From NCBI RefSeq assembly GCF_900112165.1, contig NZ_FOKY01000001.1, positions 124,001 to 188,000 of the forward strand: DNA of 64,000 nucleotides, read 5' to 3'. Below, one piece after another: positions 20,362-54,898 of the stretch; within the stretch, counting starts at the first letter, position 1, and every line of letters starts with the position of its first letter. This DNA comes from Brevinema andersonii (GTDB taxonomy: Bacteria; Spirochaetota; Brevinematia; Brevinematales; Brevinemataceae). The notes below the pieces were generated by a model. It searched no databases, had not been told where the DNA came from, and worked only from the letters and a program-made list of their open reading frames with translations. A program made the position numbers and the translations under genes.

Positions 20362-20525
20362 ATATCCTTGAATAAACTACTTTTAGCTTATATATTTTTA
20401 TAAGATTTGATAAAGATTTATACATCTAAAATTAACAAAATTAACATTATAGTACTTATGGATTTATGCGTTTTTATGAGCTCAGCAAAATAAAAGATCA
20501 TATAATACAATTTTAATAATATAGC

Positions 20526-20558
20526 AATAAAGACTGCTTAAATTAAGCAGTCTTTATT
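20526..20558. terminator. Bidirectional terminator between the zincin gene and flaA
   Basis: A perfect inverted repeat with 16-base arms around one central base: AATAAAGACTGCTTAA and its complement. It starts 164 bases after the plus-strand stop and ends four bases after the flaA stop, with A/T-rich sequence on both sides. It can end transcription from both directions. The 160 bases before it hold no gene I can support. Confidence 0.85.
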
Positions 20559-20562
20559 ATTT

Positions 20563-43230: not shown

Positions 43231-43605
43231 CTAACTTTTAGGGAGTTTAGATCCATATTTAGACCGACCCTGTCTTCGATTATCAACACCCATAGAATCC
43301 AGTGTACCTCGCACAATATGATAACGAACACCAGGTAAATCTTTCACACGACCACCACGAATCAACACTACAGAGTGTTCTTGCAAATTATGACCAATAC
43401 CTGGGATATAAGCTGTAACTTCCACGCCTGTTGTCAAGCGCACACGAGCGATCTTACGAAGAGCTGAATTTGGTTTTTTAGGTGTCATCGTTGTAACACG
43501 AGTACACACACCTCTTCTCTGCGGATTAGAACGTAGAGCAGGAGACTTTGTTTTTCTTTCTGAGGCTTGGCGGCCAAAACGTACCAACTGATTAATTGTA
43601 GGCAT
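43231..43605 (-). CDS. rpsL: 30S ribosomal protein S12
   Basis: The 124-residue protein starts [20 protein letters not shown] and contains [20 protein letters not shown] with the wild-type lysine at the streptomycin site and [17 protein letters not shown]. The start at 43605 is the family start with GAGGA eight bases upstream. It begins the str gene group and has its own strong promoter at 43652-43681. Confidence 0.98.
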
Positions 43606-43651: not shown

Positions 43652-43681
43652 ATTATAAAACAAAACAATAGCTTTTGTCAA
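43652..43681 (-). promoter_or_regulatory. Sigma-70 promoter of the str gene group
   Basis: Perfect TTGACA (43676-43681) and perfect TATAAT (43652-43657) with an 18-base spacer on the minus strand, 46 bases before the rpsL start. It allows rpsL-rpsG-fusA-tuf and probably the S10 genes to be made independently of rpoBC. Confidence 0.82.
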
Positions 43682-43759
43682 TCTCCGAATAAAACATAGA
43701 TTAACAAAAGCATCTAAAAATTTCTATTCCCTCACAATTATTTCGCACAAATTCTGGAT

Positions 43760-43830
43760 AAAAATCTTCTGATATTATTTAATTCAGAAGATATTTCTGA
43801 AGAAAGTGCCAGAATATATCTTCAGAAATA
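43760..43830 (-). terminator. Competing hairpins, terminator-like, downstream of rpoC
   Basis: In transcription order: hairpin A has 12-base arms (43819-43830 with 43792-43803) and a 15-base loop; hairpin C has nine-base arms (43784-43792 with 43764-43772), an 11-base loop, and runs into TTTTT, which looks like a terminator. Between them, hairpin B (43795-43801 with 43783-43789, five-base loop) shares bases with both. A and B exclude each other, and B and C exclude each other. The layout resembles an attenuator switch, or a simple double terminator. The stems are A/T-rich. Confidence 0.6.
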
Positions 43831-43909
43831 CATAAAAGTAGTAATTATGACAAAATTATAGATTATTTTTCCTATTTTGTCTAGTCTTTTGCATATTTTT
43901 TCAATTCTT

Positions 43910-46900
43910 TTAAGATTTTTTTCCTAAAATTTTCAATGAGTCATAATGTTTAATACCTGTACCTGCAGGAATCAATTGACCAATCACTAAATTTTCCTTT
44001 AATCCTTGAAGAGTATCAACAGCACCTTTTAATGCAGCACCCGATAAAACTTTAGGAGTCTCTTGGAAAGAAGCAGCTGATAAAAAGCTTTCTGTAAATA
44101 GTGCAGCTTTTGTAAGACCCATCAGCACAGGTCTAGCTTTTGCTGATTCACCGCCCTGACTCACGACATTTTCATTTTCCTTACTGAAAATATGACGATC
44201 CACCGTTTGGCCAATAATAAATTCTGTATCACCAGGATCTGTAATTTCTACTTTTCGAAGCATTTGTCTGATAATAATAGAAATATGTTTTTCATTAATT
44301 TCTACACCTTGAAGCCTATATACAGCTTGGATTTCTTCCAGCAAAAATTGTTCTACAGCATTCTGGCCCAATACACGCAAAATATCATGAGGAGAAACAA
44401 CTCCATCACAAAGCGGCTCCCCAGCTTCAACTTTATCGCCAATGCGGACATAAATATTCTTTCCCGTAGAAATAACATGACTAAAGGTCCGTCCGTTAGA
44501 TGCACGCACAACAATTGTATATTTACCCTTTTTATGGTCAATGGATTCTACGATACCATCAGATAGAGAGATAACAGCTGCATTTTTAGGTTGCCGGGAT
44601 TCAAAAAGTTCCGTAACACGAGGAAGCCCACCAATGATATCTTTTGTACGACGTTTCGCCATAGGTCTTCGTGCAACAGTATCACCAGCCTTGACCATAC
44701 TACCTTCTTCGACAGCAAGCGAAACCCCTGTAATTAACATAAAACGTTCTAACTCATTTCCTTCCTGATCAACCACTAAAAGCAAACTTTTATCTTTTTC
44801 TATTTGTCCATCTACTTCTTTTTCAGCAAAACGAATGATACCGTCAAACTCACAAACATAAAGTTCATTATAAGGATCAAATTCAACTAGTGCTGTTCCA
44901 CGCTTGACAATAGATTCTGCTGAAACAAGCAGTTTAGAGCCCACACGTACAGGATAATTATATTTCTGAGACTCTAAAGCTAACAGAACAGAACCTTCCT
45001 TCTGAAGGCGTACTCTACGACCAAAACGAACTTCTTCGCTATTCTTAAGTATGGCAACAGTATGCTCACTCGCCACGTCTTTTCCATTGAGGCGATCAGC
45101 TTCAGAAGGATCTGCAATATTAGCAACAGGAATCTGAGCCAAAATTTTCTGAACCTCTATACTTCCTTTACGAGTAATAATTTTTTCAAGACCGGTTTCA
45201 GTTTGACGTTCAACTACATTTTCCGGTACAGAAAGAATATAAGCATCATAGCCTAGAGCTAACTGATTGTCTTCAAGTGATGTAGCCGCAGTGCCACCAA
45301 TATGAAAAGTTCTCATCGTTAACTGCGTACCTGGCTGACCAATAGATTCAGCAGCAATAATTCCAACAGCTTCTCCAATATTTACTGTATCTAATTGAGA
45401 CAAATCCCAACCATAACATTTACCGCAAACACCTTGATCTGCTTCACACGTCAACACAGAACGAATACGAATTTTATCAATATCAGCTTCTTCAATTCTT
45501 TTCACCGCTTCTCCATCAATAATTTCATTAGCAGGACAAATAAGTTCTCCATTTCTCGGATCAAAAATATCCATAGCAGCAACGCGGCCCAAACATCGAT
45601 CGGCCAGTGTTTTTATAATTTCTTCACCCTGACGTACTGCTTCAAGCTCCATATAACGCAGAGTGCCACAATCATGAGTAGTAATAACAACATCCTGTGA
45701 AATATCCACTAACTTACGCGTGAGGTAACCAGCATCAGCTGTTTTAAGAGCCGTATCTGCTAGACCCTTACGAGCACCATGACTAGAAATAAAATATTCA
45801 AGCACAGAAAGACCTTCTTTAAAGTTTGAGCGGATCGCCATTTCAAGAATTTCACCTGAAGGCTTAGCCATAAGACCACGCATTCCAGCCAACTGCCGAA
45901 TCTGTTCCCGACTGCCTCGCGCTCCGGAATCCATCATTATATAAAGGGCATTGAATCCATCTTCACTGTCTTTCAGTTTGTTTTCAACAAGTTTTTTAAT
46001 ACGTTCGTTTGCACTAGCCCAAAGGTCAATAACCTGATTGTATTTTTCATCATAAGTAATAAGACCACGTCGAGCATTATCCTCAATTTTACGGACTTCT
46101 TCTTCGGTTTTAGAGACAATACTGTATTTTTCTTCAGGAATTTCAACATCCGCAATGGAAATAGTAACACCCAGTTTCGTCGCATGACTATAACCAATTG
46201 ACTTAAGATCATCTGCTAACTTTGCCGTCTCTTTAATCCCATAAATCTTATAACATTGAGCGATTAAATTTTCAATACGCTTTGAAGTAAATGTTTCATT
46301 AACAAATCCAATTCGCGAAGGAATAACTTGATTAAAAATCACACGTCCTGCTGTGGTTTCTACCCAATTATTATCAACTTTATAAAGTATCCAATCTTCG
46401 TAAGCAATTTTCTTGCTGTCTGCCGCATAAAGCAATTCCGGATAAGAATCAAACTTTTTCAAACGTTCTGGTCTATGAAGTTTAGGCTTGGTGAGATGGT
46501 AAATACCCAATACCATATCCTGAGTTGGGTAGACAATAGGACGTCCATTTGCAGGGTTCAGAAGGTTACGGCTAGATAACATCAGAATCCATGCTTCAAT
46601 TTGAGCCTCAGGAGAAAGTGGAACATGTACAGCCATTTGGTCACCATCGAAGTCTGCATTATAGGCATGACAAACTAATGGATGTAGCTGTATGGCTTTT
46701 TCCTCAACTAAAATAGGCTCAAACGCTTGAATACCCAATCGATGCAATGTTGGTGCACGATTAAGAAGAACAGGATGATTTTGAGCTACTTCTTCAAGAA
46801 TTTCCCAAACTTTTTCATGTTCAATTTCGATATAGCGTTTTGCAGCTTTGATATTAGACACAAATTCCTTTTCAACTAACCCCCGCATAACAAACGGCTT

Positions 46901-47995
46901 AAAAAGCTCCAAAGCCATCTGTTTTGGAAGCCCACACTGATGAAGCTTAAGATTGGGTCCAACAATAATAACAGAACGTCCAGAATAATCAACTCTTTTC
47001 CCTAAAAGATTTTGCCGGAATCGCCCTTGCTTGCCTTTAAGGATGTCTGACAAAGATTTAAGAGGACGGTCACCGCCGCCGGTCACAGGATGGGCTCTAC
47101 GAGAATTATCAAACAAAGAGTCAGCAGCATCTTGAACCATTCGCATTTCATTTTTGATAATAATATCAGGAGCATTTACTGATTTTAATTTTTTAAGTCT
47201 GTTATTTCTGTTAATTAAACGCCGATAAAGATCATTGATATCAGAAGTAGCAAATCTCCCACCATCTAGTGGAACCATAGGACGCAAATCGGGAGGTAAA
47301 ACTGGTACAGCATCCAGTACAACCCATTCTGGCTTATTTTTCGAACGACGGATATCTTCTGCCAATTCAAGACGTTTTATTACTTTTTTGTCGCTTTTGT
47401 TTTGATATTCATTAGTTGCACGAAGTTCATCAGCTAAAGCATCCAAATCCAGATTCCGCAAAATTTGACGAATCGCACCTGCACCAGCTCCTGCAGTGAA
47501 TGCTTCTTTATAACGATCCCTATATTCATCATATTCTTCATCAGTCAATACCTGATTTGGAGAAAGATCCGTTTCCCCAGCATCAATAACAATATATTTT
47601 TCAAAATATAAAATACTTTGAATATCACTAGGAGCAACATCTAACAGTATAGCAATTTTAGAAGGGATAATACGGTAATACCAAATATGGGCTATAGGAT
47701 CTACAAGTTCGATATGACCGGTACGATAACGTCGAACTTTGGATTCCGTCACCTCGACACCGCAACGGTCACAGCAAATGCCTTTATAGCGAATCGAACG
47801 GAACTTTCCACACGAGCATTCGTAATCGCGTGTCGGCCCAAAAATACGTTCACAGAACAAGCCATCTTTTTCTGCTTTTAAGGTGCGGTAGTTGATTGTT
47901 TCGGGCTTCAAGACCTCACCGTGCGACAATGAACGCACTAAATCAGAACTCGCCAGATGCACCGAAATCGAACCAAATCCTTGCATTCCTTTCAT
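43910..47995 (-). CDS. rpoC: RNA polymerase beta-prime subunit
   Basis: The 1361-residue subunit carries the catalytic aspartates in [13 protein letters not shown]. The N-terminal zinc ribbon is C-S-C-G ... CDRCG, the second zinc site is in the [16 protein letters not shown] segment, and [19 protein letters not shown] is the conserved rudder/lid region. Trigger loop and bridge helix sequences ([19 protein letters not shown]) are intact. Length is normal for a bacterium without large insertions. It starts 33 bases after rpoB. Confidence 0.98.
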
Positions 47996-54365: not shown

Positions 54366-54547
54366 TATCGCATCAATCCTTGAAGCAGAATTCGCACAAT
54401 CCAATCTATGCCAAAAAGTAAAGCTGAAAAAACAGCAACAAAAATAAGCACAGCAACGGAAGCACGAACTACCTCATCTTTTGAGGGCCAAGAAGCTTTT
54501 TTAAGCTCTTCGACCGAACCCTTCAAAAATTCTAATAATTTTGTCAT
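54365..54547 (-). CDS. secE: Preprotein translocase subunit SecE
   Basis: A 60-residue single-helix SecE: the amphipathic LLEFLKGSVEELKKASWPSK ahead of the membrane segment ASVAVLIFVAVFSALLFGID. SecE clamps SecY together in the translocon. It follows trnW and overlaps nusG by one base, a common arrangement. Confidence 0.94.
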   Translation of the reverse strand: MTKLLEFLKGSVEELKKASWPSKDEVVRASVAVLIFVAVFSALLFGIDWIVRILLQGLMR

Positions 54548-54570
54548 ATTCTTTATCCATATAGTTTCTC

Positions 54571-54642
54571 AGGGCAGGAGGGACTCGAACCCCCAACACT
54601 CGGTTTTGGAGACCGACGCTCTACCATTGGAGCTACTACCCT
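54571..54642 (-). tRNA. trnW: tRNA-Trp (anticodon CCA)
   Basis: A 72-base cloverleaf on the minus strand. The acceptor stem AGGGTAG pairs with CTGCCCT at all seven positions with one G-T pair. The anticodon loop CTCCAAA reads CCA, and the T loop has GGTTCGAGT. The 3' CCA is not encoded. It lies between rpmG and secE, a common bacterial site for trnW. Confidence 0.96.
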
Positions 54643-54825: not shown

Positions 54826-54898
54826 AGCCCACAATCGGAATCGAACCAATGACCGCTTCCTTACCATGGAAGTGCTCTACCTACTGAGCTATGTGGGC
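54826..54898 (-). tRNA. trnT: tRNA-Thr (anticodon GGT)
   Basis: A 73-base cloverleaf on the minus strand. The acceptor stem GCCCACA pairs perfectly with TGTGGGC, the anticodon stem CTTCC/GGAAG encloses ATGGTAA (anticodon GGT), and the T loop has GGTTCGATT. CCA is not encoded. It is the first transcribed gene of the translation cluster, directly after the promoter at 54913-54941. Confidence 0.96.

Follow-up and report, generated by a model that had tools for sequence, protein, structure and literature searches.

We asked what the gap between rpoC and rpsL of Brevinema andersonii encodes, since three hairpins that exclude one another had been noticed there and read either as an attenuator or as two simple stacked terminators. 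The window is the whole stretch of DNA that was analysed (64,000 nucleotides), and the genes and elements of this locus lie on its minus strand. The upstream neighbour is rpoC (43910..47995; PF04998 in the C-terminal part, E 9.9e-20), whose stop is at 43910. Downstream lies rpsL, coding for ribosomal protein S12 (43231..43605; PF00164, E 3.9e-39), which has its ATG at 43605 and is the first gene of the str operon, here rpsL-rpsG-fusA-tuf. Pfam searches confirmed the RNA polymerase subunit, S12, S7, EF-G and EF-Tu around the element. Gene and gap labels are unreliable in parts of 55-64 kb, where wrong frames were picked, and no argument depends on these.

Analysis of the minus strand revealed the three hairpins exactly where the earlier note had placed them, with 12/12, 7/7 and 9/9 pairs formed. 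Hairpin 1 (arms 1:2, 43830-43819/43803-43792) has 12 pairs, the alternative middle hairpin (arms 2:3, 43801-43795/43789-43783) has 7 pairs in this copy, and hairpin 2 (arms 3:4, 43792-43784/43772-43764) has 9. The arm coordinates are such that the middle hairpin shares bases with the other two and excludes both, as had been claimed. The reported run of five T after the last stem is present (TTTTATCC), but one T belongs to the stem and four follow it (TTTT at 43763-43760).

The energies of the hairpins alone, calculated with Vienna, were -13.0 kcal/mol for 1:2, -5.9 for 2:3 and -9.2 for 3:4, and the predicted minimum fold consisted of 1:2 and 3:4 side by side (-22.2 kcal/mol). The 2:3 pairing is the weakest and was never the predicted minimum; when segment 1 was removed the minimum still kept 3:4. 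In a growing RNA whose 3' end lies between 43782 and 43770, another predicted fold is briefly the best one (-16.2 to -16.8 kcal/mol), and in this transient fold segments 3 and 2 are bound by segment 1 together with a portion of the loop. The fold of the 101-nt stretch had a z of -2.84, equalled in 1/200 shuffles, and the triple hairpin overlap was reached in 1/500 dinucleotide shuffles of the 265-nt gap. Using as criterion a chain of three overlapping hairpins, each with at least 7 perfect pairs and loops of 3-30, no second site was found on either strand of the 64-kb window except the complementary strand of the same site. The exact pattern of hairpin 1 matches once in its genome, and a dispersed repeat was rejected, a DNA search having given no second strong copy of the gap in that genome among the matches listed.

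The hairpins are flanked by two promoter-like sequences. P1, a sigma-70-like promoter (TAGACA-17-TATAAT, 43855..43883, minus strand) with 11/12 matches, lies upstream of the hairpins, and P2 (TTGACA-18-TATAAT, 43652..43681, minus strand) with 12/12 matches lies before rpsL. The distance of 79 bases from the hairpins to the str promoter, given in the earlier note, is right when measured to the -35 of P2 (43681-43652). Only 8 promoter-like sites with at least 11/12 matches occur in the whole window on both strands, and the two in the rpoC-rpsL gap are those flanking the hairpins. When the gap strand was simulated 2000 times with a first-order model, 0.05% of the simulated sequences contained two such sites and 1.65% contained at least one. 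The P1 transcript would start near 43848, which would place the beginning of the hairpins about 18 nt past the start. Because P2 is downstream of the element, an attenuator at this place would act only on P1 transcripts or on read-through from rpoC. Around the P1 -10 region, GACAAAAT on one side and ATTTTGTC on the other form an inverted repeat (43855-43883 and surroundings, minus strand), which could be an operator or could have arisen by chance. Elsewhere in the window, another 12/12 promoter (54941-54913) is directly followed by two tRNA genes (54826-54898 and 54570-54642, minus strand), upstream of a long run of minus-strand genes beginning near 54404.

The class is represented by 18 genomes in the collection, and rpsL was located in 17 of them. 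The four genomes of the family, namely that of the window and G001, G002 and G003, all carry the element upstream of rpsL. P1 is kept wherever the contig reaches that far (3/3), with 12/12 matches in both relatives concerned, G001 and G003; P2 is conserved in 4/4, with 11 or 12 of 12 matches in the other three genomes. The order of genes has changed in the relatives: by eye, rpoC of G001-G003 has a GC-rich terminator-like hairpin of its own right behind it and then other frames, and the homologous element sits upstream of rpsL. In G001, where a single contig carries both rpoC and the element, the rpoC terminator and then a different reading frame lie between the two; the element is thus associated with rpsL rather than with rpoC. 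In G001 and G003 (L053, L055) the distance from P1 to the loop exceeds that in the window genome by 61-66 nt, and by eye additional small hairpins seem to be present between P1 and hairpin 1. A further sequence, AAAAGTGTAA, found before rpsL in the 5' UTR (L053, L054, L055), resembles AAAAGTGTGA, which follows the putative pseudoknot strand (described below) in G001 and G003; this resemblance was not seen in the window genome.

A covariance model, R1, was built from G001-G003 only, with the window copy left out. R1 found the window copy (43732..43835, minus strand; the whole conserved RNA element) with 41 bits and E 2.5e-6, the next match in the window having 15.8 bits, and across the genome of the window copy this was the sole match at E up to 0.1 (E 6e-5). 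Searches of 23 rpsL or rpoC loci matched four, the family members, and 0 of the 19 others, which belong to 13 further genomes of the class. The six loci designated f3 and f4, whose rpoC-rpsL gaps are about 120-130 nt with one similar promoter by eye, gave no match to R1. Among 392 genomes of the phylum, searched with stricter filters at which some weak matches are lost, six matched: the four family members, G214 and G266. The latter two were rejected as carriers, their matches being without the loop and standing before frames other than rpsL. An exact pattern of the loop, the spacing and CCAGAA..GTG occurred in 9 of the 392 genomes, the four of the family and five others (G067, G156, G171, G237 and G374), and these five were taken as chance matches, judged from the matched letters.

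Covariation, the absence of which had been named, along with that of read-through, as what would refute the earlier reading, exists. In a four-row alignment (A4) fitted to the model, 10 of 21 pairs changed on both sides, a value that none of 500 shuffles reached and that was at most 4 when the pairing was slid; the sample is four sequences, of which G001 and G003 are close, and the shuffles ignore relatedness. Hairpin 1 alone showed both-side changes at 5 of 13 model pairs (2/500 shuffles; at most 1 when slid) with 98% of cells paired, although its count of pair types was ordinary (146/500 shuffles). A manual count on hand-aligned arms gave the same both-side changes for hairpin 1, and RNAalifold on the same four rows predicted nearly the same two hairpins with 20 pairs. 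The U-G pairs at columns 17/40 and 21/35 of the alignment fit an RNA read on the minus strand. The three relatives alone showed weak covariation (3 pairs, 49/500 shuffles), and thus its strength comes from the added window copy, which is absent from the model. Hairpin 2 differs in register between genomes, is variable in sequence and has 84% of cells paired. Together, the comparison of the four copies makes it close to certain that an RNA structure is conserved, the conservation of hairpin 2 being less certain than that of hairpin 1.

In the apical loop of hairpin 1, the stretch AUUCUGGCACU (43805..43815, minus strand), whose last U is paired in the model, is identical in 4/4 genomes. Also invariant in 4/4 is CCAGAA (43752..43757, minus strand), a putative pseudoknot strand that complements UUCUGG of the loop (43814-43809). 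Only three runs of at least 4 letters are invariant in all four copies, AGATA, ATTCTGGCACT and CCAGAA, and the only ones of at least 6 are the loop and its complement. For a random 6-mer of the same composition, the probability of complementing the loop would be 0.0014, or 0.06 over about 45 windows. The loop/CCAGAA helix never varies, so it is without covariation support. The GUG after CCAGAA could pair with the CAC of the loop as well. The invariant loop, its putative pseudoknot with the 3' strand and P1 had all been missed in the earlier note.

The competing 2:3 pairing was compared between genomes. It is possible in 4/4, with 6-8 duplex pairs each though the stem letters differ, and it is weak, very weak in one of them, with hairpin energies of only -0.9 to -4.4 kcal/mol. 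That it is possible in all four follows from arms 1 and 3 being related within each genome and differing between genomes. When segment 3 was shuffled, the observed duplex energy was reached by 0.7% of shuffles in the window genome, 1.6% in G001, 0.2% in G003 and 3.4% in G002, the segment limits being hand-chosen and G001 and G003 close rather than independent. Pairings across genomes, with arm 2 taken from one and arm 3 from a different one, served as a control. Arm 2 of the window genome was clearly best with its own arm 3 (-6.0 vs -0.8 to -1.9), as was that of G002 (-3.4 vs 0.4 to -1.7), and that of G003 was barely so (-5.0 vs -4.9 with G002), while arm 2 of G001 reached -1.5 with its own arm 3 vs -3.9 with that of G003 and -3.1 with that of G002, its own thus not being the best. 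These values support a competition in three of the four genomes, where 2:3 would be a transient state or one driven by a ligand.

The attenuator logic suggested for the hairpins stands only in part: the alternative middle pairing recurs in 4/4 genomes, weakly in G001, but the terminator half is not conserved. A U-run after 3:4 occurs only in the window genome, G001-G003 having A-rich linkers there, and a search of the stretch from the element to P2 in the four family genomes revealed neither a terminator nor any other output that is conserved. The 20524-20560 region of the window, between convergent genes, holds a bidirectional terminator-like hairpin of 15 pairs (-17.3 kcal/mol) with T-rich tails on both strands, much stronger than the hairpin at 43764. 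The comparison of the four genomes also bears on the other proposal of the earlier note, two simple stacked terminators; as plain intrinsic terminators ending rpoBC transcription, we regard these as improbable. The 3:4 hairpin (-8.8 to -9.2 kcal/mol) with its TTTT in the window genome agrees with it, as does the GC-rich hairpin that stands right after rpoC in the rearranged relatives, none having been seen at that place by eye in the window genome. Yet relatives whose rpoC has a terminator of its own still conserve the element, which stands there before rpsL; the U-run is not conserved, and the invariant loop and its complement serve no terminator and are left unexplained.

The arrangement of the promoters allows another reading, in which P1 drives a free small regulatory RNA that acts in trans and stops short of P2; its position at rpsL would then be an inherited neighbourhood. 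The strong P1 directly upstream (3/3 visible) and the separate strong P2 downstream (4/4) speak for this reading, and U runs are found between CCAGAA and P2 in 4/4 sequences. Against it, the element stays with rpsL where rpoC is separated, and the best hairpin preceding one of these U runs reaches no more than -5.2 to -6.2 kcal/mol in three of the genomes, while in G003 it is above the -3 cut, these not being the same hairpin across genomes. We consider a small RNA of this kind the less likely reading, and cis control of the str operon likely.

Searches for a trp-type leader peptide over segment 1 gave only ATG-TAT-TTC-TGA, without a Shine-Dalgarno-like stretch. One open frame is shared and lacks a start codon in two of the four genomes. 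A translated upstream frame (leader peptide R-Y-I-L-A-L-S) to which the hairpins would be secondary has in its favour that both variable sites in the block AGATAYATTCTGGCACTNTCT are synonymous in that frame and that an in-frame ATG is present in G001 and G003. In the window genome and G002, however, a stop immediately precedes the frame, which contains no ATG, GTG or TTG. The frame of G001 ends after 19 aa, and the stems covary across the frame; together these points leave this explanation very improbable.

Comparison with known RNA families indicated no counterpart. Rfam 15 (4227 models) gave only two tRNAs in the window at the gathering score; in the gap, at E up to 5, there were six matches of 14.2-21.3 bits against cut-offs of 58-86, and L001, L053, L054 and L055 together gave, at E up to 1, a single match, which lies outside the element and has 28.4 bits against a cut-off of 114. 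No tRNA or tmRNA was found in the four loci, and a literature search found no report of a Brevinema non-coding RNA. Mimicry of 16S rRNA, examined on the sense strand by sequence only, was not supported: 39-48 of 200 shuffles were as good as the core against its own 16S, 25/200 as good as the downstream block and 169/200 as good as the whole element. We think it most likely that the element controls the production of ribosome components, as an RNA absent from the family library used for the search.

Taken together, these results lead us to favour, with moderate confidence, a structured, probably switching and pseudoknotted leader RNA of the str operon, transcribed from its own P1 and restricted to one family among the genomes searched. 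In the resting state of such a leader, hairpins 1 and 2 would form and the pseudoknot would lock hairpin 1. A ligand would recognise the loop or the pseudoknot, the simplest candidate being a protein that the operon itself encodes, for instance S12 or S7, and would shift the balance between the resting and the 2:3 states, altering the amount of P1 transcript that reaches rpsL. P2 would provide expression independent of the ligand. In the window species the leader may act partly by termination at hairpin 2 (TTTT), and the relatives would have to act otherwise. A more far-reaching proposal, which we put forward only tentatively and hold to be doubtful, is an RNA switch of a new class controlling a ribosomal operon, in which the four arms are rewritten together, two exclusive folds are kept, the 11-nt loop and its 6-nt partner are fixed, and the output is species-specific, being termination here and something besides termination at hairpin 2 in the relatives. 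A spirochaete leader this compact, combining competing pairings with an unchanging loop, would offer a clear binding target, and the question of which ligand reads an rpsL leader would become testable with a small RNA; at stake is the str operon with S12, S7, EF-G and EF-Tu.

The trp-type attenuator has competing hairpins ordered 1:2, 2:3 and 3:4. The Brevinema element has the same order and differs in being without a conserved leader peptide or terminator. Attenuators in the rpsL leader have been described in Listeria, Xanthomonas, Pseudomonas and Rickettsia (Naville and Gautheret 2010, PMC2965389), with a form that varies by lineage without a global consensus and a protein partner that is left open there; the word stem 'spirochaet' is absent from the main text of that paper. 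Like the attenuators described in PMC2965389, the Brevinema element precedes rpsL and can form alternative hairpins that exclude one another; it differs from them in the U-run, which is not conserved, in the invariant loop with its pseudoknot strand and in the promoter before the gene. In the rpsL motif of 'Candidatus Pelagibacter ubique' (Meyer et al. 2009, PMC2704228) a bulged stem is combined with a three-stem junction; as presented there, the motif is likewise a structured, lineage-restricted RNA in the same rpoC-rpsL gap. The Brevinema element, unlike it, has a consensus fold of two hairpins in a row and a putative pseudoknot between loop and 3' strand, and does not contain the bulged P1 stem leading to a three-stem junction described for Pelagibacter. 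In E. coli, for which the regulation of the str operon is well described, the S7 site is located between rpsL and rpsG and works at the level of translation, according to PMC10931766. The role suggested here, feedback by a ribosomal protein on its own operon, would be like that of the S7 site, while the Brevinema element is located upstream of rpsL and of P2. The available portions of PMC7247131 and PMC10319736 show no comparable leader. The element lies 5' of a ribosomal-protein operon in 4/4 family genomes, as is characteristic of ribosomal-protein leaders, and with the leaders as described in PMC2965389 and PMC2704228 it shares the place and the general idea, not the structure.
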